From: Gammaproteobacteria bacterium
GTDB taxonomy: Bacteria; Pseudomonadota; Gammaproteobacteria; HK1
Length of the DNA stretch: 46,435 bases
Assembly: GCA_022826505.1 (NCBI GenBank)
Contig: JAJDUQ010000132.1
Location: 1 to 46,435 of the forward strand
Direction: 5' to 3'
Shown here: piece by piece, positions 30,178 through 45,918 of the stretch
Layout of the letters: each line of letters begins with the position of its first letter
Numbering within the stretch: position 1 is the first letter of the stretch
Program-made: the position numbers and the translations under genes
Notes under the pieces: model-generated
Databases searched by the model: none
What the model saw: the letters and a program-made list of their open reading frames with translations, nothing else
What the model was told of the DNA's origin: nothing

Positions 30178-30581
30178 ACACAGAAGCACCACAGTCTTCG
30201 TTGCGTGCGGCGACGCGGCGAATCGAGGAGGGTCTCGAAGCACGGCGCGTCGGACAAGGTCCTGATGCCGCACGACGCATTTTGGACTGGTACTGCTCCG
30301 ACGGGCGCCGCTACATCAACCGGGCGCGCCGAAACCAGTCGGGGGGAGAGCTGAAAGACTGCGCCCAGTCGAAGGCTTCGCTCGATTCATGGGATGATCT
30401 GATACGTCACGATGCGAGTATGGGCAACGTGACATTCCTCGTCTCGTGTGCGATGGACGCGCGCAACCGCGCGGCGCATCTTGATCGATGGGAACCCGCG
30501 TCTTGGAGCGTCCGGCTTGAATCCAGACTACGAACTTCCGGAGGGCTCTCCGTCCTCCGCGTAAATCGCCGCGATGCCTGA
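30174..30581 (+). CDS. Small protein of unknown family in the PIN/TPR unit
   Basis: A 135-residue protein with no domain I recognise. It is rich in Arg and predicted helical in the first two thirds (RRIEEGLEARRVGQG, ARRILDWYCSDGRRYINRA). The start overlaps the PIN gene stop (ATGA, 4 bases) and its end overlaps the next gene by 8 bases, which argues that it is a real, translationally coupled gene. It has no signal peptide or membrane segment. It may be an adaptor between the PIN toxin and the giant protein, but this is only position-based. Confidence 0.6.
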   Translation: MNTEAPQSSLRAATRRIEEGLEARRVGQGPDAARRILDWYCSDGRRYINRARRNQSGGELKDCAQSKASLDSWDDLIRHDASMGNVTFLVSCAMDARNRAAHLDRWEPASWSVRLESRLRTSGGLSVLRVNRRDA

Positions 30582-33500
30582 ACTACCCCTCTCGGCCCTG
30601 GCCACCGTTCTTCGACCGCTTGTCACGAGCGTTTTCAGGAACGCGCCTCGCCTCATGGCAGAACATCGGGCTGGTCAAGTACCGATGACACAACCGTCCT
30701 CTCTCATGGACGACTTGCTGAACGAGACGCTGCACAGGATTCGTGGCGGCAGCATCGACACCGGCTGGTGGCAAAGCTTGCTGGATCGATTCGTACAACA
30801 ATACATCGCCCCGGAATTTCTGAAGAAGCCCGCACTACAGGAATGGCTTCGCGAGGAGCAGGTTGCAAGCGACCTGAAGACTATCGCGACGTGGCGGATT
30901 ATGGCGACCGCTCAGGATGAGGCCACACTGCGGGATCGCCTCGCGCAAACGTACTCGAACCGAACCGGCGAGGCCCTCCACTTTGCCGCTGGATCCATTG
31001 ATGCCATGGTGGCCATCCTGGTGGCGGGGTACATCGGAGCGATTCGCTCCGACCAACGCGCCGTCGCCGGAATGGTGCAAACGGGATTCTCCCGTGTCGA
31101 TGAACGCTTCGAACACTTGATTCAGGCTGTTTCTCCACTCTCCGATCCATATGTCCGTGCTGCCCACACGCAACATGCAGACAAGGAACTCGCGCGAATA
31201 CTCGCCCTCCGCGCAGTCAATCCCGTGCGGTCACGATCCGATATCCGGAAACTGCTGGGTCGTCTTGACTCCGGCGATCTCGTCGCTGCCGATGATGTGG
31301 TCAAGAGCAGCGTTCGATACTGGACGGCGAGGTTGTGTGCGAGTGAGGCGGAGACACTGGATATCGCAGAAGAGCTCCGAGCGCAGATCAGGGACGATGA
31401 ACCGAATAGGGACTTGGTCATCGTAGATGCGCTGATGTGCGAGATGCGGGGCGATCCAGATGGCGCCGTTCAGCTTCTTCGAGACCGTGAAGACCCTGAT
31501 TCCCGAACTGCATTATTCGGGGTTCTCGCCCGATCACGTGATACGAATTCTGCGCTGGAAGAGTTTGCGGTAGCCATTGGTTCCGCGAATGCCGAATTTT
31601 TCACCGCTGTCGGGTGGAGAAACTGGGTCCACAGCATGGCTGCTGCCGGCAGATGGAAGGAAGCTGCGGAACGTCTGGCCAGCATGGATGGCACGTGGTC
31701 GGATGCGCCAGTATTGGCAGTTATCGAAGGCATCACCAACGCTCAGTTGCTGCTTCCCATAGAGAGAAGAGGCGCGACCGGGGACCTTCAACTATTTGCA
31801 GACATCAACCCGATCCAGGGAGAGCAGGCGGAGATCGCCCATGCGCGTGCCACGGCCTGTTTCAAAAATGCCACGCGTGGACTCGAGGAGATTGAGGATA
31901 CCGATCTCGAGCGGTTCGTCACTGATTGGTGCCGATGGCTCCGGTTGATGGACCCCAACGAGGACAACGCAAGAAGCGCTCACGACGAGATTCGACGGGA
32001 CCTCGAACGCCCCAATCCGGACGTTACGGTGATGCCGTTCGCCCGGGCTTTTGGAGTCTCATTCGACTCGGAGCATCTACGGCGGCATCTTTCTCGCCGG
32101 GAGCGGCTCGGCGGGTTGAATGAGGATGAGCTTCGCGCGGAGTGTCTTCTGTTCTTGACAGACATGGACTCCGGAACAATCGGTGGCCGAGAGGTTCTTG
32201 GTTACCTGGAGACGCGTCGGACACGGCTGGCTCGCGTGATGCCGGCCGAACTCCTCGAGGCCGCGAACATTCGCGCCCTGATCACGGACAACCAGACGGA
32301 AAGGGCTCGCGCGTTGTTGGCGGAAATGCGCGATGGCCTGAATGACGCGGAAGCAATGCGTCTTTCCGCAATGATTGATTCTCATGAGGGACGTGACCCC
32401 CGAAAGGAGCTTGAGCGGGCATACGAGAAAACGGGTGATCTCGTCGATCTTCACAACCTTGTCCGGTTTCTGAAGCAGGCGAATGACAGGGAGTCCCTCC
32501 TGCGCCTTCTTGAGGACCTGGTAGCGAAGCATCGGACCGTCGCGAACTTGACGGATTTGGTGGTCTGCCTGAGCGACCGGCCCTTCTTCGATCATCGCCG
32601 GATAGTCGAAATCCTCGATTCCAACTCGGACTTGGTCGGGCGAAGCCTCGACCTCAAGGCCGTCAAGGCGGTGGCGCTCTTTCATTCCGGCAGATATTCC
32701 GAAGCCAGAGAACTGAACGACCAGCTTCGAAACAGCGGGCACGCGGAGAGGTCACTCTTTCTCGACATCAACCTAGCGGTGGCATCCGGTGACTGGGAGC
32801 GCTTGCCGGAGATTGTCGAGCGCGAATGGCCGAGGCGAGGCGAGCACACTGCAGAGACGCTGGTGGGCTTGGCCCAAGTTGCTGCCCAACAGGTTTCAAG
32901 CCACGGCCGAGCGCTGATGCTCGCCAAGCTGGCCGCGGAAAAGGCACCCGATGATCCGCGTATCCTGGCCGCATCGTACTGGCTGCACTTCGAGCTTGGT
33001 CGAGACGAAGAGGCTGATCGAGGCTGGTTGTCGCGCGCCTTCGAGCTCTCTTCCGGCGACGACGGTCCTTTGTGGTCGGTGGATTTCCGGACAGTTGTCA
33101 CGAAGTGGATGCCGGAGCGACAGAAGCGGCTGGTCGAGATTGAAGAAAATTGGTTGGGCGGCGAGATCCCGACGGGAGTTGCTGCGTCACTGTTGAATGT
33201 GCCCCTGATGCACCTTCTGGTACAGATTCCCGAAGCGAATGCAGACCGCACCGACCGACGCAGGAGCGCACTGGTGCCGGTGGCCTTCGGTGGGCGATCA
33301 TCGGTGGAACTGGAAGTGGGCTGGTCAATCGGACTGGACATCACCTCCATTCTGGTCTTGCACTATCTCGACCTGCTGGAACCGCTTTTCGAGGTGTTCC
33401 ACCGCATCAAGTTCGCTCCCGACGTCATGGAGTGCCTGTTCCATGAGCAGAACAGCGTGCGCTTTCACCAGCCGTCGCGCGTCCGGGATGGCCGACAGGT

Positions 33501-36500
33501 GCGCGCCCTATGCAACCGTCAGCGGATCCGCGTAGCTGGAGAATTTGTAGAACCCGCAGGAGCCGCTGCCGAGGAAGTGGGGCGAGAGCTGGCTGCACTA
33601 TTGCAGATCGCAAGGCAGGAAGGCGGCAAGGTCGTTTGCGTTCTCCCCATACATCGACCCAATTCGCTGATGGAAGAGGAGGCGAATACGTCCGACTGGA
33701 ACGACCTCATCATTTCGGTGCCGGACCTCTGCGGGCTGCTGTTCCGGCAGGGGCGAATCGACGCCGAGACCCACGAACGTGCTCAATTGTATCTTCGGAG
33801 CCAGGGTCAGCCAGGGCGTGGCAATGACGAACCTTCCATTCTGGATGGAACCATCTATCTGGAGGGGCTCGCTCTGTCCCATCTCCAGGGAGCCAAAGTG
33901 CTGGATCAAATTGCTGGCGCTGGTCTGGACCTTTGTATTCACACCGATGTCCTCAATCAAATGGATGGACTGGTCAGGGCAGGTGAGTCGGGTGAACAAC
34001 TTGCAGTGCAACTCGGCGAAGTTCGCAATGTCTTGCGCAGTGCGGTGGAGTCCGGACGAGCCTCCTATCTGCCCGGAAAGGTCGATCCGGAGGACCCGGT
34101 TCTGAATCGACATGACCAGGTCAGCGTCACCCAATCGCTGCTGGCAGCCGCAGCCGACTGTGAAGCCCTCTGTATCGATGATCGTTTCTTCAACAGCACG
34201 GAGCGCTTCGTAGTCGAGGAGGAGGTTGGCCGCACCTTGCCTATCGCCTGCGTCCTCGACATTTTGGACAGCCTTGCTGGATCCGGTCACCTTACCCCCG
34301 AGCGCCTCTGGGCGGCGCGGCACAAGCTGCGCACGAGTGGGTTTGTCTTCGTTCCCTTTGAAGCTGAAGAACTCCTCCACTGGCTGAGGGCCACAATCGT
34401 CGAAGACGGGCAGTTGACGGAAGGCGTGGAATTGCGTGCCATCCGACAGTCGACGGTTCGAACCATTACCATGGGTTTGATCAATCCGGCGGAAGCATTC
34501 GCGCTGTTCGCGGAGCAGACGCAAACGTGCGCATCTGTTATCCGTTCCCTGTGGAGCGATGAATCCGTGACCGAGGAATTCGCCACGGTCCTGTCGGACT
34601 GGATATGGCGGCACATGGTTGTCGATGCGCCTGGACATCATGGAAACGGTGAGAGGGAGAGCCGGAATGTCTGGAATCGCGAGGCAATGTTGCGACGACT
34701 GTGCGTCGTTTTTCTTCCGCCTGGTATCGAGTCGCCGGACCGACGTCGCAGGTATGCGGACTGGGTTGACGAGTCGGTGCTCCAGCCGCTCCGGCCAGCC
34801 AATGCCCACCTTGTCGAAGAGGCGCTGACGGCCATATGCAACATGATTCCCGATCAGGACAGCGAAGCAGAGATCTTTGGTACCGTTTTCTTTGCCCACT
34901 TGCCCGAGTCCTGTCGCCAGTACCTTCTGACGCAGTTCCCTGACCGAGCAAGACAGTGGGGCTTCGAGACACGAAGAACGTTCGGTCTCGAAGCCGACGT
35001 TGCGATAGTCGACCGAGAACTGTTTACCGCGGCGAGGAACGCGTTCTCGGGGATGGGATCGCAATCGGTGCGGTCGATCGCTGGAGAAGAGATATCGGTA
35101 GACCTCGATCCGGACGATGGCCTCATCGTACTGACGCATCCCGTTTCCGACTCCGGCAACAGGACGAAGGTGTCGGACCTTGCGATTCTCTCGCCGGATC
35201 CGAAGGCACGAGTAGCGGCGTTGCGCACAATGATCGAACGATTCGGACCGACGACGCCTGACCTCGTCGACCGTCTTCTTTCTGATTTGGAATCGCGGGA
35301 GCCGGACGACATTGAACTGTCGAATATTTTCCGCGAGGCGGCCAGCGGCCTCGCCGCAGTGCAAGGCGCGCTACTGAGAAAGGTCGATTCCGCTCAACCA
35401 ATCGGTGCGCTCGATGTACTCCCGCAAGAAATGGCGTACTTCGAGAGCTTTGTGGGGCCGCAACCGGAAGGAAGGGATCCGGATCGGTACGTTCGTGAAA
35501 TCTTGATCCCCTATCGCAGAACTCTGCTGGAACGGGATCTGAGTCGGGGTCTCGACATATGCTGTCTCGGAGCGTTGCGCGACGATCTCTGTCCAGGGCA
35601 GTGGATCGCCCATGTAGACGATGATGCGGCGTGGGTGGCTCTCTCCAACTGTGGCGCGGACGAAGCTCCGATCTCGCTGGTTGGTGCACTCGACGTCGCG
35701 CTGTACCGACAAGGTGACGTGCGATTTCAACAGTACGCTGCGCAAGCGGTTTCCAAGCTGTGCGGTGAAGAATTCGGTCAGCAGCAAGACTCCGATTTCT
35801 ACCGGCTTCTCTGGATTTTCGCGCGATTCGCATTCAACCGCATCAATGTCATCGAGAACGGTTCGAAGCAACCGGGATTCTGGAAACGGGTGTGTGCATG
35901 GATGCAGGCTCAATTCATTGCGCGTGCATTGTCAAAGGCGCCGGCTACCGTCGCAATGGACAGGCTGGAGGAGTGGTCCCTGTCCAGTATGGCGCTCGTT
36001 GGGGCCTACGCCGAACTCGTCGAGGCTCGGGAAGAGCCAATGCTGTTGTTCACGGAACGTTTGCCGGCGAGTGACTTGCGTTGTGAAATGCTCGGCCGCC
36101 TTGTTGCACTCAGATCGCGGCACACGAGCGAGGGGCGACGTTTTCCACGGTCAGAGGAAGTCGATCGGGCTTTGGAGGGAACTCGGGAGAGTGGCAATTG
36201 GCTCAAATGTTTCTTTCCCGGTCCGCTCGAAGGCCATCGGCGTCCGACCGCTCCCGCACCGGAGGACCTTTCGGAGGCGTTAAAGGCGGAGGTGCCGGAT
36301 ATCGTCCTCCCGGCATCCTGGCACCTAATTGCGAATACATCGCATTTGCTTGTGCTGAATGAACCCGAGCTTGGTGCCGCAAGGGACGCACTGGCGCGAG
36401 TGCCCCACATTGGGGATGAAGGGGTAAAGCAGAACATTCTTCTTTCCTTGGAGGTTGCAAGCATAGTAGCGAAAACGAACAGAGACACGTTGCTTGCTGA

Positions 36501-36798
36501 CGCAATTGCGGACGCGGCTACCAAGGTCAGCACGAGGGTGTCGAACGAGAACGATATATGGCTGATTCTGGTCATCTGCCTGCAAGCGGCGGCGGCGTTC
36601 GAGGAACGGAATGTCTGGTTTGCTTGGCTCGAAGCAAGGCTGGCAAGAATTGCAAGCTGCCTTCCAGGACCTCCAAGTAAGTCCGTTCGGATATTTCTGG
36701 AACATCTCGATGCCATGGAGACAATCTTGCCAGTCGACTCGTGGTTCCACCGGCGAGCGAGGTCAATCGCGTCCGCCGGAGCGGAGCTTCGTCCTTGA
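30574..36798 (+). CDS. Giant alpha-solenoid protein with PIN-like domains (2074 residues)
   Basis: A 2074-residue intracellular protein with no signal or membrane segment. Residues about 1-190 are helical. About 195-880 is a TPR-like solenoid. At about 911-960 a PIN-like start is seen (IGLDITSILVLHYLDLLEPL, then FAPDVMECL), and a second copy at about 1090-1240 (ILDGTIYLEGLALSHLQ, HTDVLNQM, ending ALCIDDRFF), with Asp residues at PIN active-site positions. The rest is mostly helical with a small beta-rich part near 1490-1525 (ISVDLDPDDGLIVLTH). This recalls, from memory, the TPR plus GreA/B-C plus PIN proteins (family name PIN-TPR-GreABC) found in predicted conflict systems. It is less GC-rich than the housekeeping genes around it. 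Confidence 0.75.
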   Translation: MPELPLSALATVLRPLVTSVFRNAPRLMAEHRAGQVPMTQPSSLMDDLLNETLHRIRGGSIDTGWWQSLLDRFVQQYIAPEFLKKPALQEWLREEQVASDLKTIATWRIMATAQDEATLRDRLAQTYSNRTGEALHFAAGSIDAMVAILVAGYIGAIRSDQRAVAGMVQTGFSRVDERFEHLIQAVSPLSDPYVRAAHTQHADKELARILALRAVNPVRSRSDIRKLLGRLDSGDLVAADDVVKSSVRYWTARLCASEAETLDIAEELRAQIRDDEPNRDLVIVDALMCEMRGDPDGAVQLLRDREDPDSRTALFGVLARSRDTNSALEEFAVAIGSANAEFFTAVGWRNWVHSMAAAGRWKEAAERLASMDGTWSDAPVLAVIEGITNAQLLLPIERRGATGDLQLFADINPIQGEQAEIAHARATACFKNATRGLEEIEDTDLERFVTDWCRWLRLMDPNEDNARSAHDEIRRDLERPNPDVTVMPFARAFGVSFDSEHLRRHLSRRERLGGLNEDELRAECLLFLTDMDSGTIGGREVLGYLETRRTRLARVMPAELLEAANIRALITDNQTERARALLAEMRDGLNDAEAMRLSAMIDSHEGRDPRKELERAYEKTGDLVDLHNLVRFLKQANDRESLLRLLEDLVAKHRTVANLTDLVVCLSDRPFFDHRRIVEILDSNSDLVGRSLDLKAVKAVALFHSGRYSEARELNDQLRNSGHAERSLFLDINLAVASGDWERLPEIVEREWPRRGEHTAETLVGLAQVAAQQVSSHGRALMLAKLAAEKAPDDPRILAASYWLHFELGRDEEADRGWLSRAFELSSGDDGPLWSVDFRTVVTKWMPERQKRLVEIEENWLGGEIPTGVAASLLNVPLMHLLVQIPEANADRTDRRRSALVPVAFGGRSSVELEVGWSIGLDITSILVLHYLDLLEPLFEVFHRIKFAPDVMECLFHEQNSVRFHQPSRVRDGRQVRALCNRQRIRVAGEFVEPAGAAAEEVGRELAALLQIARQEGGKVVCVLPIHRPNSLMEEEANTSDWNDLIISVPDLCGLLFRQGRIDAETHERAQLYLRSQGQPGRGNDEPSILDGTIYLEGLALSHLQGAKVLDQIAGAGLDLCIHTDVLNQMDGLVRAGESGEQLAVQLGEVRNVLRSAVESGRASYLPGKVDPEDPVLNRHDQVSVTQSLLAAAADCEALCIDDRFFNSTERFVVEEEVGRTLPIACVLDILDSLAGSGHLTPERLWAARHKLRTSGFVFVPFEAEELLHWLRATIVEDGQLTEGVELRAIRQSTVRTITMGLINPAEAFALFAEQTQTCASVIRSLWSDESVTEEFATVLSDWIWRHMVVDAPGHHGNGERESRNVWNREAMLRRLCVVFLPPGIESPDRRRRYADWVDESVLQPLRPANAHLVEEALTAICNMIPDQDSEAEIFGTVFFAHLPESCRQYLLTQFPDRARQWGFETRRTFGLEADVAIVDRELFTAARNAFSGMGSQSVRSIAGEEISVDLDPDDGLIVLTHPVSDSGNRTKVSDLAILSPDPKARVAALRTMIERFGPTTPDLVDRLLSDLESREPDDIELSNIFREAASGLAAVQGALLRKVDSAQPIGALDVLPQEMAYFESFVGPQPEGRDPDRYVREILIPYRRTLLERDLSRGLDICCLGALRDDLCPGQWIAHVDDDAAWVALSNCGADEAPISLVGALDVALYRQGDVRFQQYAAQAVSKLCGEEFGQQQDSDFYRLLWIFARFAFNRINVIENGSKQPGFWKRVCAWMQAQFIARALSKAPATVAMDRLEEWSLSSMALVGAYAELVEAREEPMLLFTERLPASDLRCEMLGRLVALRSRHTSEGRRFPRSEEVDRALEGTRESGNWLKCFFPGPLEGHRRPTAPAPEDLSEALKAEVPDIVLPASWHLIANTSHLLVLNEPELGAARDALARVPHIGDEGVKQNILLSLEVASIVAKTNRDTLLADAIADAATKVSTRVSNENDIWLILVICLQAAAAFEERNVWFAWLEARLARIASCLPGPPSKSVRIFLEHLDAMETILPVDSWFHRRARSIASAGAELRP

Positions 36799-38239: not shown

Positions 38240-38387
38240 TCAAGCGGAAACGGCTCCGGAAAGCACCATGAACACATAGGCATTGGCCTTTCGGAGCCGA
38301 TCTCCGGAGACGACCAGCTTCATGTGGTGAATGCCACGCAGCAGCACATAACGCCCGGACTTCGCGAAGAGCGTTGTCAGCTTCGAT
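38240..38387 (-). pseudogene. C-terminal remnant of a paralog of the gene at 43873
   Basis: Read on the minus strand, this gives about 48 residues with TLFAKSGRYVLLRGIHHMKL and KANAYVFMVLSG before a stop. The gene at 43873-45021 ends with TLFGKSSRFVLIRGIHHVKL and IKAYVFLMLCA at the same spacing. The frame upstream of about 38387 is unrelated to that gene, so only the tail survives. It shows that the unknown family was once present here in a second copy, in opposite orientation to the present cluster. Confidence 0.75.
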
Positions 38388-38391
38388 ACCC

Positions 38392-38550
38392 AACCGCGAC
38401 AAGGAAATCGCGAGGCGGCTCGACCTGACCTTCTACGGCGTGCGCTACCGGATCTCCGGCATCTTCGCGAAGCTCGGCGCGCGCGGGCGGATCGATGCGG
38501 TGCACCGCGCGCGGCTGCGCGGGCTCCTGCCGCCGGCCGACGACGCGTAG
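38392..38550 (+). pseudogene. LuxR-type HTH fragment (C-terminal end of a regulator)
   Basis: The plus strand encodes NRDKEIARRLDLTFYGVRYR followed by a segment ending KLGARGRIDAVHRARLRGLL and a stop. This is the DNA-binding helix-turn-helix of LuxR/GerE regulators, with the usual NKEIA..L.....V..H...I..KLG..RA order. There is no start codon or upstream domain; the fragment abuts the opposite-strand remnant at about 38388. Both look like products of one rearrangement. Confidence 0.7.
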
Positions 38551-39030: not shown

Positions 39031-41439
39031 ATGGCAGAGGTCGAGCATTCCAGTATGGATCCGGTACTGCTGGATCCCGTCGAGCCTTCCTTTCGGCGCG
39101 CAATCCCCTACTTCCTGCCGGTTGCGGCCATCCTCCTGATCATCAACGCCGCGGTCCAGGGCGGGTGGTGGATCGCGGCTCCGCTCGTCTTCTTCTTCGT
39201 CGTGGACCCCCTGGACACCCTCTTCGGCGTGGAAGAGCGGAACATGAACCCGGACGAGACCAGCGAGGGGCAGTTGCTCTGTCACCGGCTGGCGCTCGAC
39301 ACATGCGTCGCGCTCTGGCCGCCGGCGCTCGCGTTCGTGCTCTGGTGGATGCTTGATGCCGGTGGTCTGGCGATCTGGGAGGTGCTGCTCATGGCGGTGG
39401 TGCTCGGCAACATGTCCACGGTCATCCTCGTTGCCGGCCACGAGCTGATTCACGACCGCACCGCATGGCGGCGCCGCTACGGCGAGTTCCTGCTGAGCTC
39501 GGTCGGCTGCGGGCACTACGCCACGGAGCATGTCTACGTTCACCACCCTCGGGTGGCGACGCCGGCGGACCCGATGACGGCGCGCAAGGGGCAGAGCTTC
39601 TGGCGGTACCTGCCGTGGGCGGTTGCGGGCAGCATCAGGGAATCGTGGCGCCATGTACGCGAGCGGCTGGCGCAGCGCCGGCGGCCGGTGTGGCACTACT
39701 CGAATCCGTTCTGGCGATATGCGCTCGGTGTCGCGTTCTGGTACGCGCTGGCCTTCTGGATGGGTGGACCACTGGGGTTGCTCGTGTTCACCGCGGTCTG
39801 CGGCATGGCCGTGTTCTCGCTCCGCCTCGGCGACTACGTCGAGCACTACGGGCTGAGCCGGCGCTACCTCTCGAACGGCCGTTTCGAGCGTGTTCAGCGC
39901 CAGCACTCCTGGAGTGCGGCGGGCCGCATCTCCAATTGGCTCTACTACAACACCCAGCGTCATGCGGACCATCACTGCAAGCCGGTGCGCCTGTTCCCGC
40001 TCCTGCAGAACCATCGCGCGGATATCGCGCCGCGAATGCCGGGCTGCTACGGCCGGATGTTCGGCCTGGCCCTGAATCCCCGCCGGTGGTTCGAGACGAT
40101 GGATCCGATGGTCGACGAGTGGCGCCGCCGCTTCTACCCCGACATCGACGATTGGCGCGTCTACGACAGTCCCGCGTTTGCGGCGCGCCCGGACATGTTC
40201 AAGGAAATCGCCGAAGTCACCGCCGGAGCGCCACGCATGGCGGGCTGGATCGACGACGCGCCGGATTTGCTCGACGGGTTGCGGGAACGGGAATTCAGCG
40301 ACCTCGATCTGCCGGATGGTTTCGGGCCGGACCCGGAGTACGAGGCCATCGCCCGACGGGGGCTCGCGCGGCTCTACTGGACGCGGGAGCTCGGCGTGCC
40401 CGAAATGCGCGAGCAGATCGACGACATACCGGCGCAGGGCGTTCGGGAAACGGTCGAGACGGTGCGAAGCTACGCCAACCGAAAGGTCTTTCAGATTGGT
40501 GTGCTGGCGATGCGGGGCAGCCTGTCGCCGGCCGAGGCGGCGACCGCGACGGCGAACGTCGCCCAGGCGGCCATCGGCGCGGTGCTGTCCGCGGTTTTCG
40601 AGGATGCGCAGGCGCAGGCAAGGGAGGGCACGGTGCTCGCGCTGTGTCTCGGCGACCTCACCGACCCCGAGGCTGCCGCACGCGCTGCCGCGAACGTCGC
40701 GTTCGTGTGCGACGGCGGCAGCGAGCACCGCGCTCGTGCGCTGTGCGGCCGGTTCGAGCAGGCGCTGCAAGTGCTGTCCCGGGACAGTGTGCTGTTCGAT
40801 GCGCAGGCAAGCGCGACGGCGCTCGCCGCTCGTCCGGCACTGTCGCTTGCGGAATTCGCGGACAACTGCCGCCGCGCCTCGACGTCCCTCCATGCGCTGG
40901 ATCTCGTTCCGGCGCGCACCGTGTTCGTGGCGGGCGAGCTCGACGCGCCGGCCTGGCTGGAAGGGGTGCGGCGTGAAGTGCTGGTCCGGTACCTCGCGGG
41001 CGAGAAGCTGGCGGCTCGGTTGCACGAGATTCGGGGGGTCGGGACGAAGGACGCCCCTGCGCCTGCTTCCGACGTGCTTGACCGCATGCGCGGTGGTGTC
41101 CGCGAAGTGGCGCTTGCTGCCCGTTGTCTGCAGTTGCAGCTTGCGGAGCGCGAGCCGCAGGCGCTCGATTGGCACGTCGACACGGTGTTCGAAGCGGCTC
41201 GATCGCAAGAGTTGATCCACGGGGAGGCCGCAGCCGGCCTCACGCGGGCGTGGCGCCTGTGGCGAGACGTGCGCGGCATCCTGCGCTTTGTCGGCGAAGG
41301 TGTCGAGACCGCACCGCCGGAAACCAGGGCCGTGGTGGCGCGGGCTTGCGGGGTGGCGGACTTCGACGCCCTCACGGCAGAGATTGCGCAGACGGCACGG
41401 TGTGCGGCCCTGGGCGTCGACCAGTTGGCAGGGCATTGA
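39031..41439 (+). CDS. AlkB-type membrane di-iron hydroxylase fused to a degenerate GlnE-like domain
   Basis: An 802-residue fusion. Residues about 25-385 are an alkane-hydroxylase-like membrane protein with hydrophobic helices and the three His boxes: GHELIH (about 137-143), EHVYVHHP (about 166-173) and RHADHH (about 309-314). Residues about 410-802 resemble glutamine synthetase adenylyltransferase: VRSYANRKVFQIGVLAMRG, GTVLALCLGDL, and GGVREVALAARCLQLQLAE with AWRLWRDVRGILRF. The GxGS...SDxD catalytic motif of GlnE is missing, so this half is probably a pseudo-enzyme. The ATG follows GAGGAG. The next gene's TTG start overlaps this stop, so both proteins should be made in step. Confidence 0.82.
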   Translation: MAEVEHSSMDPVLLDPVEPSFRRAIPYFLPVAAILLIINAAVQGGWWIAAPLVFFFVVDPLDTLFGVEERNMNPDETSEGQLLCHRLALDTCVALWPPALAFVLWWMLDAGGLAIWEVLLMAVVLGNMSTVILVAGHELIHDRTAWRRRYGEFLLSSVGCGHYATEHVYVHHPRVATPADPMTARKGQSFWRYLPWAVAGSIRESWRHVRERLAQRRRPVWHYSNPFWRYALGVAFWYALAFWMGGPLGLLVFTAVCGMAVFSLRLGDYVEHYGLSRRYLSNGRFERVQRQHSWSAAGRISNWLYYNTQRHADHHCKPVRLFPLLQNHRADIAPRMPGCYGRMFGLALNPRRWFETMDPMVDEWRRRFYPDIDDWRVYDSPAFAARPDMFKEIAEVTAGAPRMAGWIDDAPDLLDGLREREFSDLDLPDGFGPDPEYEAIARRGLARLYWTRELGVPEMREQIDDIPAQGVRETVETVRSYANRKVFQIGVLAMRGSLSPAEAATATANVAQAAIGAVLSAVFEDAQAQAREGTVLALCLGDLTDPEAAARAAANVAFVCDGGSEHRARALCGRFEQALQVLSRDSVLFDAQASATALAARPALSLAEFADNCRRASTSLHALDLVPARTVFVAGELDAPAWLEGVRREVLVRYLAGEKLAARLHEIRGVGTKDAPAPASDVLDRMRGGVREVALAARCLQLQLAEREPQALDWHVDTVFEAARSQELIHGEAAAGLTRAWRLWRDVRGILRFVGEGVETAPPETRAVVARACGVADFDALTAEIAQTARCAALGVDQLAGH

Positions 41440-43793
41440 CCGATACGAAATCCACGCAGCCGGCGCAAGCGGATCGAGCGGCGGCCAACAGCATACTGCG
41501 CAAGCGGGTTGCCGCCGACCGCGGGGTGGTCGCGGTTCCCGTGCTCGCACCGCAGATCGAGTGGCGTCGCATCTCCTCCGAGCAGGTGCTGCTCGTCTCC
41601 GAATCCGTCAACACCGTCATCCGCAGCCCGCTGTACGCGGCGCTGGTGCCCCTGCTCGACGGCCGGCGCCCGGCGGACGACCTCGTGACGACGCTGTCGC
41701 AAGCCCACTCGGCGCGTGAGGTCCGGCAGGCCATTGCCGCGCTGTCGCGTCGCGGCTACGTGGTCTCCGGGGAGCACGGCCTGGATCGGGCGTCGGCGGC
41801 ATTCTGGTCCTTGCTCGGTGCGTCGCCGCGCTGGGCCGAGGAACGCCTCGGTACGTTGCGGGTCGCGGTTGCCGGCGACGGCGGGGAGCGCCAACAGCGC
41901 CTTGCGGCACGGCTCGGAGCCATGGGCGTAGGCGTCGGTGGGGACGATCCCGCGCTGGTCGTCGCAGTCTGCACCGACTATCTCGAGGAACGCCACGCCG
42001 CCGTCAACGAGCGCCACATCGCCTCCGGCACGCCCTGGATGCTCGTCGCGCCGACGGGCATGCAGCCGCTGTTCGGGCCGGTGTTCCGGGCGGCGGACGG
42101 CGGCCCTTGCTGGCGTTGTCTCGCCTATCGCCTGCGCGGCCACCAGGAGGTCCACAATTTCCTGCGCAACACCGGCGGCGAGAAGGCCGCCTTCAAGTCC
42201 CCGGCCGCGCCCCCGGGGGTGGTGGATACGATCTGGGGTCTGGTCGCAATCGAGGTCGCCAAGTGGCTGGTGCTCGAGGACGATGCGCCGATCCACAACC
42301 ACGCGGTTTCGGTCGACATGACGCGCTTGCGCTGCGAACACCACCATGTCATGCGCCGCCCCCAGTGCTTCGCTTGCGGGGATGCGGCCCTGTACCGAGC
42401 CGATCGCCCGGCCCGGCCAATGCGCTTGCGGCCGAGTCCCAAGGTGGTCCGCAACAGCGGTGGCCTGCGCTCGGTGGCGCCGGAGGAGACTCTCGCGAGG
42501 TATCGGCACCTGATCAGCCCGGTCAGCGGCGTGGTGTCGTGGGTCTCGCGCACCACGGACGAGGCGGACCCGTGGCTCCATGTCTACTGGGCCGGCAGCA
42601 ACTTCGCGTTGACCGCCGATACGCTCGGTACGCTCCGGGGCAGCCTGCGCGCCAAGAGCGCGGGCAAGGGGAGCACGCAGGCGCAATCCGAAGCGAGCGG
42701 GCTCTGCGAAGCGGTGGAGCGCTACTGCTGCGCGTTCCACGGCGAGGAAATCTGCCGATCGGCGAGCTATGCCGACTTCGAGCGGGCCGGCGAGTCGGCG
42801 GCGATCCACCCGAACGCGGTGCAGTTGTTCAGCGAGCGACAGCTCGACAACGCCGGCGAGATCAATGCACGCGGTCATCCGCTCAACTTCGTTCCGGCGC
42901 GTTTCGACCCCGACGCCGAGGTGAGCTGGTCGCCGGTGTGGTCGTTCACCGAGCGCCGGCACCGCTGGCTGCCCACGTCCATCCTCTACGTGACTCCCGC
43001 GGAGCAGCGCTTGCCCAACGAGGCGAAGTCCGATTCCAACGGCTGCGCCGCCGGCAACACGCTCGAGGAGGCCATCCTGCAAGGCTTCTACGAGCTCGTT
43101 GAACGCGATGCCTTCGCCATCTGGTGGTACAACCGGCTGCGATTGCCCGGTGTCGATCTCGAGAGCTTCGACGACGACTACCTGAACGCCGCGCCCGACT
43201 ACTACGCGAGGTTGAACCGGGAGTTGTGGGTGCTCGACGCCACCAGCGACTTCGGCGTGCCGGTCTTCGTGGCGGTTTCCCGGCGCACCGACGGCAAGGC
43301 CGAAGACATCATCTACGGGGCGGGTGCGCACGCGGACCCGCACGTTGCGGCGCTTCGGGCGGTTTGCGAGCTGAATCAGTTTCTCGACTGGACACAGGGT
43401 CCGGGCAGCGGCGCCGGTGGAAAGGTGGTCGACGACCCCATGTGCTTGTGGTGGTGGGACCACGCGAAGCTCGCGGACCACGACTATCTCGCGCCGCTCG
43501 GCGGCGCCGCTCGGCGCACCAGGTTCGACTACCCTCCTTCGGACACCACCGACGTCAAGGAGGATGTGGAGCGGTGCCAGGCCCTGGTCGAGGCCAGGGG
43601 CATGGAGTTCCTCGCGCTCGATCTCACGAGACCCGACATCGGCATGCCGGTGGCGCGCGTCATCGTGCCGGGAATGCGCCACTTCTGGGAACGATTCGCC
43701 CCCGGGCGCCTGTACGACGTGCCGGTGAAGATGGGGTGGCGGGAGCACCCCACCGCCGAGGCCGACCTCAACCCGGCGCCGGTGACCATCTGA
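41436..43793 (+). CDS. Fused leader-binding/E1-like and YcaO cyclodehydratase (azole RiPP type)
   Basis: A 785-residue protein. Residues about 15-110 look like the winged-helix leader-peptide-binding region (LLVSESVNTVIRSPLYAALV, then a helix pair). About 130-330 is E1/ThiF-like with two CxxC pairs (GPCWRCLAYR and PQCFACGD) forming a zinc site. About 350-785 is YcaO, with STQAQSEASGLCEAVERYC and QGFYELVERDAFAIWW as ATP-site motifs and a C-terminus ending NPAPVTI, near the usual Pro-rich tail. Such enzymes convert Cys/Ser/Thr of a peptide to azolines. The TTG start at 41436 overlaps the preceding stop (TTGA). No dehydrogenase or precursor was found adjacent. Confidence 0.88.
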   Translation: MTDTKSTQPAQADRAAANSILRKRVAADRGVVAVPVLAPQIEWRRISSEQVLLVSESVNTVIRSPLYAALVPLLDGRRPADDLVTTLSQAHSAREVRQAIAALSRRGYVVSGEHGLDRASAAFWSLLGASPRWAEERLGTLRVAVAGDGGERQQRLAARLGAMGVGVGGDDPALVVAVCTDYLEERHAAVNERHIASGTPWMLVAPTGMQPLFGPVFRAADGGPCWRCLAYRLRGHQEVHNFLRNTGGEKAAFKSPAAPPGVVDTIWGLVAIEVAKWLVLEDDAPIHNHAVSVDMTRLRCEHHHVMRRPQCFACGDAALYRADRPARPMRLRPSPKVVRNSGGLRSVAPEETLARYRHLISPVSGVVSWVSRTTDEADPWLHVYWAGSNFALTADTLGTLRGSLRAKSAGKGSTQAQSEASGLCEAVERYCCAFHGEEICRSASYADFERAGESAAIHPNAVQLFSERQLDNAGEINARGHPLNFVPARFDPDAEVSWSPVWSFTERRHRWLPTSILYVTPAEQRLPNEAKSDSNGCAAGNTLEEAILQGFYELVERDAFAIWWYNRLRLPGVDLESFDDDYLNAAPDYYARLNRELWVLDATSDFGVPVFVAVSRRTDGKAEDIIYGAGAHADPHVAALRAVCELNQFLDWTQGPGSGAGGKVVDDPMCLWWWDHAKLADHDYLAPLGGAARRTRFDYPPSDTTDVKEDVERCQALVEARGMEFLALDLTRPDIGMPVARVIVPGMRHFWERFAPGRLYDVPVKMGWREHPTAEADLNPAPVTI

Positions 43794-43825
43794 TGCGGAT
43801 CGGTGCAGGCACGTGCCACTCGTGA
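43793..43825 (+). other. Ten-codon micro-frame overlapping the YcaO stop
   Basis: An ATG overlapping the YcaO stop codon (TGATG) opens a 10-codon frame, MRIGAGTCHS. It could be a leader-like or chance frame. No other evidence supports translation. Confidence 0.12.
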
Positions 43826-43872
43826 ACCCTCCGCCGCAATCGCCCGGAACGGCCTAAGGGGGCCCCGGCGTC

Positions 43873-45021
43873 GTGAACGCCCTCGATGAGCTGTGGGCCA
43901 TCACCGAAGAACGCCTGCTTGGCGAGGCATCGTCGCTGGGCGGGTTGCTCGCCGGATTGCGTCCACGCATCTCCCCGGCGTTGATCGGCGGCATCGGATG
44001 GGACAGCCTCGTCGCACGGGCCGGCGATCTGCCGGCGACCTTCGCGGCGTTCCCGTTCGGGTTCGAGGTGCGACTCACCGATCCGAGGCCGTGTGCCGAT
44101 CTCGGCGTGTCCCTGGTGTGTGGCAGCCGAACGGCACAGTGGTTCCTGACCATGGGCAGGGCCCCGGACGCCGATCCCGTGACGGCCGGCATCGCCCGCC
44201 TCGTATGCGACAAGGCGCGGCAAGGCTCCGGCATCCGGCGCATCACCGGGCCGAAGATGCTTCTGGAGTACGACGTCCGCCCGGCGGCGGGCGGCTCGCC
44301 CGCGCAACCCGGCACGTTTCTCTACCCCACCGAACAACCCATATTCGGCTCGCCGTGCGGGGGGGGGGGGGGCGAGCGCGCCGGGGACGTCGGCATCGTG
44401 CTCGATGGCGTCGTGACCGCCACCGCACGGCATCCGGACGCGGCCGAGCGCCGGGAAGTCGAACGGGTATATCGCACGCTCGATTCCGGCACCCGCATCA
44501 TGTCGGTCGGGGCCTTTCCGTCCAGGGAGCGGATGGTACGCCTGGCCCTGGCTGGGCCGAGGCGGACGAGCGACGTCCTGGAGCTCCTCGAACATGTGGG
44601 CTGGCCGGGGGAGCGTTCCACGGTATCGGCGGTCCTGTCGCGCCTTCAGGAGGCGAATGCGTTCGCGAGTCTCGCCGTTCACGTCGATGTTCGCGCCGGC
44701 GGCCTGGGGCCGGCACTCGGCATCGGGCTGTATGCCCGGGACACGGATTGGCTCAGGTCGGGCAAGTACTGGCTCGCCGACGGTACGGACTGGGCAGCGT
44801 TCGTCGAGACCGTCGAAGACATGTCCGGGGTGGTACCGGCCAAACTGTCCGCGCTGGCCGGCTGGTCTTCGGGGGCCGAGACCCTGTTCGGCAAATCGAG
44901 CCGGTTCGTGCTGATACGCGGCATTCACCACGTCAAGCTTGTCGTGAACGACCAGGGACTCGATGAAATCAAGGCTTACGTCTTCCTGATGCTGTGCGCA
45001 CTGCCCCCGCGTCCGCGATAA
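43873..45021 (+). CDS. Unknown protein of the YcaO cluster, with G14 tract
   Basis: A 382-residue soluble protein of no named family known to me, starting GTG. Visible conserved-looking parts are GFEVRLTDPRPCADLGVSLV, KMLLEYDV, MVRLALAG, a strand pair VHVDVRAGGLGPALGIGLY and the C-terminal RGIHHVKLVV with IKAYVFLML. The second copy remnant at 38240 keeps this last block, so it is a real conserved domain. Fourteen consecutive G at 44359-44372 encode five Gly; a change of one G would truncate or shift the protein. It lies 79 bases after YcaO, on the same strand. It could be a tailoring enzyme or partner of the cyclodehydratase (inference). Confidence 0.75.
   Translation: MNALDELWAITEERLLGEASSLGGLLAGLRPRISPALIGGIGWDSLVARAGDLPATFAAFPFGFEVRLTDPRPCADLGVSLVCGSRTAQWFLTMGRAPDADPVTAGIARLVCDKARQGSGIRRITGPKMLLEYDVRPAAGGSPAQPGTFLYPTEQPIFGSPCGGGGGERAGDVGIVLDGVVTATARHPDAAERREVERVYRTLDSGTRIMSVGAFPSRERMVRLALAGPRRTSDVLELLEHVGWPGERSTVSAVLSRLQEANAFASLAVHVDVRAGGLGPALGIGLYARDTDWLRSGKYWLADGTDWAAFVETVEDMSGVVPAKLSALAGWSSGAETLFGKSSRFVLIRGIHHVKLVVNDQGLDEIKAYVFLMLCALPPRPR
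44359..44372 (+). repeat. Homopolymeric G14 tract inside a coding region
   Basis: Fourteen G in a row within the gene at 43873, in frame as read here (C-G-G-G-G-G-E). Tracts of this length mutate at high rate by slippage and are typical phase-variation switches; sequencing error in the tract is also possible. Confidence 0.85.
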
Positions 45022-45266: not shown

Positions 45267-45596
45267 GTGCTCCAAGTCACCGAGTATGTCGATGCCCGGG
45301 GTCGCCGTCCGTTCGCACGATGGTTCAATCGCCTCGATGGCCAGGCGGCGATCAAGGTCACGGCGGCACTGGACCGCATGGGAAGAAACATCCTGTCTCG
45401 CGCGAAGGGGGTTGGGGGGGGCGTCCTGGAGTACCGGATCGACTCCGGCCCGGGATACCGGATCTACTTCGGGCGGGACGGGGGGACGTTGATCGTGCTG
45501 CTCGGAGGCGGCACGAAGAGGCGCCAACAGGAAGACATCGAGGCCGCCCGGCGGTTTTGGCGCGACTACGACCGACGCAGGGGTCAGGAGGAATGA
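45267..45596 (+). CDS. RelE/ParE (HigB)-family toxin
   Basis: A 109-residue toxin of the RelE/ParE fold, of the subgroup encoded before its antitoxin. It starts TEYVDARGRRPFARWFNRLD, typical of this group, continues with AAIKVTAALDRM, and ends with the strand pair PGYRIYFGRDGGTLIVLLGG and GGTKRRQQEDIEAA, the normal closing motif. The GTG start lies 8 bases after an inverted repeat and the gene ends 4 bases before the antitoxin. It probably cleaves mRNA on the ribosome or poisons gyrase; sequence alone does not tell. Confidence 0.9.
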   Translation: MLQVTEYVDARGRRPFARWFNRLDGQAAIKVTAALDRMGRNILSRAKGVGGGVLEYRIDSGPGYRIYFGRDGGTLIVLLGGGTKRRQQEDIEAARRFWRDYDRRRGQEE

Positions 45597-45600
45597 GGCG

Positions 45601-45918
45601 ATGGCATTGACTCGGGACTTCAAGGAGACCGTGCGGGAACGGCTCCAACGCGACCCCTCCTTTCGCGAGGCGCTTCTCAAGGAGGCGGTCGAGTGCTTTC
45701 TGGCGGGCGACGTGGAGACGGGCAAGTCGCTGCTGCGCGACCACGTCAACGCAACGATCGGATTCGTCGAACTCGGCGGATTGACCGACAAGTCGCCGAA
45801 GAGCCTGATGCGCATGCTCGGCCCGAACGGCAATCCCCATGCGGGCAACCTGTTCGAGATCATCGGCCGCCTGCAGGAGCGCGAGGGCGTTCACCTGGAG
45901 GTCCGTGCGGTCCGTTGA
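45601..45918 (+). CDS. HigA-like DNA-binding antitoxin (COG3636-type)
   Basis: A 105-residue antitoxin. The N-terminal helical part (FREALLKEAVECFLAGDVET) and the HTH (ATIGFVELGGLTDKSPKSLMRMLG, split here by function: GF-x-LA-type turn then SLMRMLGPNGNP) match the DNA-binding prophage-type antitoxin family. It follows the toxin by 4 bases and has GAGG upstream. It should neutralise the toxin and bind the inverted repeat at 45241. Confidence 0.9.
   Translation: MALTRDFKETVRERLQRDPSFREALLKEAVECFLAGDVETGKSLLRDHVNATIGFVELGGLTDKSPKSLMRMLGPNGNPHAGNLFEIIGRLQEREGVHLEVRAVR

Follow-up and report, generated by a model that had tools for sequence, protein, structure and literature searches.

The stretch of DNA analyzed here, referred to as the window, is the entire contig C68 (46,435 bases) of a gammaproteobacterial draft genome of 6.23 Mb in 346 contigs, with a completeness of 94.5% and a contamination of 7.4%. 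Toward its end lie three genes on the forward strand, at 39031-41439, 41436-43793, and 43873-45021, which a first-pass annotation made from the sequence alone had described as an AlkB-type hydroxylase fused to a GlnE-like domain, a fused E1-like/YcaO cyclodehydratase whose TTG start overlaps the previous stop, and an unknown protein. Open reading frames and profiles agree with this layout and with the naming of the first two genes, the TTG start itself being inferred. The three genes probably make up the part of an srp-type proteusin pathway that tailors the peptide, which they would furnish with azoles and an oxidized alkyl, possibly isoprenyl, group.

Gene 1 (39031-41439, 802 amino acids) joins an AlkB-type membrane di-iron hydroxylase to a GlnE-like half. 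The N-terminal part matches the FA_desaturase/AlkB family of Pfam (PF00487, 7e-26), and residues 46-366 match the alkane 1-monooxygenase 8f6t in a sequence search of the PDB (7e-52). Within the AlkB-type domain (residues ~1-380, 39031-40170), nine histidines (H137, H141, H167, H171, H172, H272, H311, H314, and H315) are invariant in 38 of 38 sequences, and we take these to be the iron ligands. An AlphaFold2 model built on the same number of alignment rows (predicted local distance difference test, pLDDT, 86.4) has FtAlkB as its top fold matches (8f6t, 2.5e-16; 8sbb, 9.2e-13), followed by both halves of Escherichia coli GlnE (1v4a, 1.6e-9; 3k7d, 2.7e-9). Gene 1 thus has both the nine-histidine di-iron site and the fold of AlkB.

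The second half of gene 1 (residues ~381-802, 40171-41436) is matched only weakly by the GlnE model NF010706 (1e-16, far under the family cut-off), and it is the fold that ties it to the GlnE adenylyltransferases. The motif LGKLGxxELxxxSDxDLxF of the genome's own GlnE lines up with LGDLASxEAxPGxxLDxLF of the gene 1 family, where the first aspartate of SDxD is kept in 4 of 38 hydroxylases and the second in 23 of 38; the window protein has A553 and N555 at these positions. Because this catalytic pair is mostly lost, we read the half as a putative pseudo-nucleotidyltransferase, and an active adenylyltransferase role was rejected on the same grounds. The AlkB fusions reviewed in PMC8918992 (available in part) are with rubredoxin or ferredoxin, whereas gene 1 carries the GlnE-like half. 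A single rubredoxin is encoded in the source genome, on contig C69. The DNA 5' of gene 1 has one match in its own genome, of 38 bases, inside gene 3.

Gene 2 (41436-43793) encodes a fused leader-binding/E1-like and YcaO cyclodehydratase of the LynD/TruD/MusD kind. Its scores for TIGR03882 and TIGR03604 exceed the cut-offs set by NCBIfam, and LynD aligns to its residues 38-783 (1e-161), with TruD and MusD also matching nearly end to end; as in LynD, the leader-binding/E1-like region is fused to a full YcaO domain. The reading frame is open from an upstream TTG at 41124 through to 43793, with a further in-frame TTG at 41436-41438 that overlaps the TGA stop of gene 1 (41437-41439), so that start and stop share the four bases TTGA at 41436-41439. 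A codon-score gene caller picked an alternative start, GTG at 41526.

Gene 3 (43873-45021, 382 amino acids, GTG start) was left as an unknown protein by the first-pass annotation, and at the level of sequence it remains one: 40 family members and their profile gave no match to a known enzyme family in Pfam, NCBIfam, or the PDB, and at most 3 of the 40 members produced weak, unrelated Pfam or NCBIfam matches. The fold, however, is recognizable. The AlphaFold2 model built from the 40 sequences is a confident one (pLDDT 92.9; predicted template modeling score 0.92), and Foldseek returned 59 PDB matches at E<=0.001 with a best value of 5.7e-6. Among the matches listed, 50 of 50 were prenyltransferases, including IptA, PriB, CymD, AmbP1, CloQ, AnaPT, and FunA, which we take to share the ABBA fold. 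The order of strands and helices, read by eye from the model, is compatible with five beta-beta-alpha-alpha repeats. The model therefore presents gene 3 as a prenyltransferase-like protein of predicted ABBA fold; we put the chances that it is a peptide prenyltransferase at roughly even. Residues conserved in the gene 3 family include E65, K128, E132, D134, R208, R220, R223, H353, K355, and K367. The DMATS family PF11991 had no matches in 398 genomes, a result that is uninformative because the control gave no signal. A run of 14 G at 44359-44372 lies within a stretch of gene 3 that is longer than in its homologues, a possible site of slippage or misassembly.

The neighborhood of the first two genes recurs far beyond the source genome. 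Related loci were taken as the best 80 of 181 confirmed YcaO relatives from one scan of genome contigs, and they are not all independent, a genome or contig being shared in L007/L076, L037/L050, and L051/L052. As annotated, they come from Alpha- and Gammaproteobacteria, Acidobacteria, Nitrospira/Nitrospinae, Acidimicrobiia, Gemmatimonadetes, Binatia, and others; many are presumably bins from sponge metagenomes. The hydroxylase is matched in 68 of the 80 loci, counting partial matches at contig ends, and in 57 of these 68 it lies on the same strand at a distance of 1.5 kb or less. Where at least 9 kb was available on both sides, it was found in 37 of 45. Twelve loci had no hydroxylase, and all 10 of the genomes searched among them hold one elsewhere, the other two loci (L037 and L050, on contigs of 4.7 kb) lying outside that search; the hydroxylase of G414 is split over two frames at a contig start. 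The idea that the pairing is private to the source genome was thereby rejected, and since the neighborhood recurs over dozens of loci from many phyla it is not a product of chance. Hidden Markov models also found gene 3 in 71 loci, an NHLP precursor in 68, ABC exporters in 64, an NHLP-fused toroid protein in 41, a tryptophan halogenase in 31, a methyltransferase in 16, and a SagB-like oxidase in 5.

The genes appear to have evolved together as well. Among 41 loci with all three, mirror-tree correlations were 0.957 for YcaO and hydroxylase, 0.802 for YcaO and gene 3, and 0.820 for hydroxylase and gene 3, and none of 1,000 permutations reached any of these values. In a tree of AlkB domains, one branch (support 100/99, with a long-branch warning) parts 38 hydroxylases from 29 stand-alone AlkBs, and the window hydroxylase groups with those of L004 and L007 (100/99). 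A sample of 17 genomes from the order has the YcaO and the fused hydroxylase in the same 5 genomes (the hydroxylase of G003 covering positions 2-679 of 808); this test overlaps the locus test because G003, G010, and G011 correspond to L021, L077, and L019. The hydroxylase-YcaO pairing is near-obligate in this YcaO clade, and neither of the outcomes that the first-pass annotation had named as refuting it was observed.

The first-pass annotation had taken the start/stop overlap to suggest that the two proteins are produced stoichiometrically, which cannot be inferred from it. Over 81 loci (the 80 and the window), the hydroxylase lies directly upstream of the YcaO gene in 52 and not in the other 29. 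An in-frame YcaO start overlapping the hydroxylase stop is possible in 25 of the 52, window included, and is lacking in 27, among them L072, which is unreadable there. Because of these counts, coupled translation of genes 1 and 2 is plausible and common in the sequences, and not required. An apparent single hydroxylase-YcaO reading frame of 1,571 codons in L072 was rejected, since a stretch of N makes up the junction.

The company that the YcaO clade keeps identifies the kind of pathway. Cysteine-run NHLP precursors accompany it in 68 of 80 loci, and the 69 short precursors of these loci end in LCCCW (41), RCCC (7), RCCCCA/F (4), or else in LCCCGI/F, LSCC types, and others, with Leu or Arg ahead of the cysteine run in most. 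The SrpE precursor of srp clusters has the core LCCCW behind a leader with the motif LXXXXL; SrpC converts its cysteines to thiazolines and SrpI brominates its tryptophan (PMC10858898 and PMC10286304, both available in part). Given LCCCW precursors like those published for SrpE, together with YcaO genes and tryptophan halogenases, the trio almost certainly belongs to a pathway of the srp proteusin type. An mSystems survey of sponges describes, in the part available, srp-like clusters along with NHLP clusters containing cupin-4 enzymes (PMC9426513), and srp clusters are called highly distributed in sponge microbiomes in the title of a cited work. The first-pass annotation knew of no described pathway that pairs the two enzymes. 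The loci prove to be those of a published family, so the kind of pathway is already known; what appears to be new is the hydroxylase with its fused half, together with the protein of predicted ABBA fold. The available parts of the srp literature found mention neither the hydroxylase, nor the GlnE fusion, nor gene 3, and name no finished natural product for srp clusters, although the founding srp paper of 2021 is not among that literature and may list these genes.

There are parallels to cyanobactin pathways too, in that gene 2 is LynD-like, gene 3 has the predicted ABBA fold, and an oxidase on contig C215 of the source genome belongs to a family that matches ThcOx and SagB models. We take NHLP leaders and NHLM-type export to operate here, and a cyanobactin leader with proteases to operate in cyanobactin pathways. 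The ABBA F-proteins of cyanobactin pathways include AutF, which prenylates Arg according to the part of its description available; gene 3 differs in having no sequence match to any ABBA family.

The likely substrate is encoded on contig C215. NHLP matches in the source genome fall on C77, C187, C215, and C222, and YcaO matches on C68 and C187 only. C215 carries a precursor ending in AAGRCCCCF, an HlyD-like gene, two ABC genes, and a SagB/ThcOx-like oxidase gene (named through its homologue in L007), and has no YcaO gene. Three related loci, L007, L008, and L010, unite an RCCCCA/F precursor, exporters, a SagB/ThcOx-like oxidase, YcaO, gene 3, and hydroxylase, and they are the nearest three to the window by both hydroxylase and gene 3; by YcaO distance L015, L005, and L009 are slightly nearer. 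Because these close relatives hold the whole set together, comparison of the sequences makes the C215 precursor, with core RCCCCF, the likely substrate of the window YcaO. Unlike the srp clusters with halogenases, neither the window nor C215:1-16000 has a halogenase match; one lies on C187, the rest of the genome not having been searched. Gene 3 ends 1.4 kb short of the end of C68, and the C215 precursor begins no more than 0.61 kb from the start of C215, and we considered that the two contigs are one broken cluster. An older rearrangement is as likely, as a gene 3 tail lies on C68 and a hydroxylase tail on C215. The latter (C215:11669-11779; L188:673-777) is the 37-residue end of a second hydroxylase copy and adjoins an RND-like gene of the C215 cluster. 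C187 itself holds a second NHLP cluster (L096:418-4275) with a halogenase and a YcaO-SagB fusion, in which the YcaO domain ends with ~90 residues in another frame although the long frame stays open into SagB, either through an assembly error or in reality.

In the pathway we propose, the YcaO enzyme would bind the C215 precursor through its NHLP leader and, with ATP, turn the cysteine run into thiazolines, which the SagB/ThcOx-like oxidase of C215 would oxidize to thiazoles. Gene 3 would put an isoprenyl group on a core residue. The leader-bound peptide would then be hydroxylated by gene 1 at an alkyl C-H bond, in a side chain or in the attached prenyl group, with electrons supplied by rubredoxin and with the pseudo-GlnE half serving as a docking or scaffold domain. 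Cleavage and export by NHLM ABC exporters would complete the sequence.

That the hydroxylase acts on the peptide in some form is very likely, and the alternatives differ in what it would do there, or in placing it outside the pathway altogether. It could oxidize an amino-acid side chain in the core, such as that of the Leu, Arg, or Phe beside the cysteine run, with gene 3 having an unrelated or a binding role. This reading, like the amino-acid side chain as a target in its own right, falls somewhat short of an even chance: Leu or Arg does precede the cysteine run in most cores, and the locus L013, annotated as from Spongia and with about 10 kb on each side, holds the hydroxylase without gene 3. 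Against it, AlkB is highly terminal-selective on alkanes, according to the accessible part of PMC10113152, and the MMPL and LolA-like genes of some clusters may point to a lipid-like product. Oxidation of a prenyl chain, the other target on the peptide, we regard as rather unlikely. An azoline oxidase acting on thiazolines is less likely again, and its appeal lies in the membership of gene 1 in the Pfam FA_desaturase family, within the desaturase superfamily, and in the rarity of SagB-like oxidases, which leaves most clusters without a known azoline oxidase nearby. Yet all five loci that do have such an oxidase (L004, L007, L008, L010, and L071) have the hydroxylase too, the source genome has its own on C215, and the histidine pattern and fold of gene 1 are those of AlkB.

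We consider it very improbable that gene 1 merely travels with the cluster as an ordinary oxidase of alkanes or lipids. AlkB-type proteins are common enough for this to be entertained: in a phylum sample of 398 genomes (E<=1e-60, two best candidates scored per genome), 41 genomes other than G000 had a match. Every one of those listed stops by position 393 of 808, however, leaving the full-length fusion in G000 only, and a passenger would fit poorly with the near-obligate pairing and the close correlation with YcaO.

Relatives of gene 3 elsewhere suggest what it may do. Gene 3 homologues and toroid proteins occur amid NHLP precursors in G004 and G012 (L194-L196, with many precursors), two genomes of one contig each that share the window's genus or family, and on C77 (L095); a JmjC_2 oxygenase adjoins the homologues on C77, L194, and L196. 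Neither G004 nor G012 has a close srp YcaO or a fused hydroxylase, and G004 has two distant YcaO-like matches. The precursors around these homologues gave 20 distinct cores, several of them near-copies of each other, from the 25 of 27 precursor rows in which a GG boundary was kept (two from L196, on the minus strand, were dropped). Trp is present in 20 of 20, where 3.9 would be expected at an assumed Trp rate of 1.4%, and is the last residue in 13; none contains Cys. In Paenibacillus, as described for PalQ/PalX in the available part of PMC10853753, an NHLP precursor is prenylated by PalQ on its C-terminal Trp, the modification predicted for the gene 3 homologues; the fold of PalQ is that of isoprene synthase and not ABBA.

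The toroid proteins are NHLP-fused in 41 of the 80 loci (e.g., L045:4966-6264), and on C77 one (L095:7986-8981) stands beside an NHLP domain. Drimenol synthase (1.4e-5), whose DLDTT faces DLDST in the toroids, is matched by their profile, as is squalene-hopene cyclase (9.5e-6 as a sum of weak repeat matches), and the position of the DxDD-type motif reads DLDS in 17 of 18 rows and DLDD (DLDDT) in the C77 row. By sequence, they resemble class II terpene cyclases. A peptide-terpenoid hybrid can be imagined, in which gene 3, as the founder of a new ABBA family, prenylates proteusin cores on Trp where present and otherwise on, for example, Arg, the toroid protein folds the chain, and the hydroxylase oxidizes it, while the same peptide receives azoles from YcaO. 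We hold this reading as a whole to be rather unlikely.

Several observations weigh against a trio that azolates, prenylates, and oxidizes one peptide. Besides its silence in sequence searches, gene 3 resembles the prenyltransferase structures with TM-scores of only ~0.36-0.53 and identities of 8-15%. The hydroxylase and gene 3 do not always go together: the former occurs without the latter in 9 of 80 loci, although eight of these span less than 17 kb and are truncated by contig ends, leaving L013 as the exception. No NHLP match was found on the whole of C68, so that the substrate is assigned in trans within a contaminated draft. The likely core RCCCCF has no Trp, nor do 26 of the 69 cores of the srp loci. 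The published changes to SrpE are the work of SrpC and SrpI (PMC10858898 and PMC10286304, in the parts available), and no hydroxylated or prenylated srp product is reported in the accessible portions of the literature found.

If the hydroxylase and the ABBA prenyltransferase do share one peptide, the products would be lipophilic, oxidized, and prenylated, and screening that relied only on azole and bromine masses would overlook them. Such a pathway would bring to ribosomal peptide biosynthesis a further class of oxygenase and a docking domain derived from a pseudo-enzyme, as well as a prenyltransferase family that is invisible to sequence searches.

The remainder of the window holds a few further features. 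The gene 3 tail mentioned above lies on the minus strand at 38246-38395, where homology to gene 3 indicates a C-terminal remnant of a second copy (model positions 322-371/372). Back to back with it, at 38374-38550, is a short reading frame that, judged by eye, resembles the end of a LuxR-type helix-turn-helix and is perhaps recombination debris. Farther upstream, 30574-36798 encodes a protein of 2,074 residues with PIN-type domains. Downstream of gene 3, a Gp49-like gene, whose match (E 2e-4) narrowly fails the cut-off, and a small companion gene form a toxin-antitoxin-like pair at 45267-45918, and the DNA of an S24 peptidase-like gene at the contig end (46129-46419) has matches of 77-94% at six further sites in the genome.

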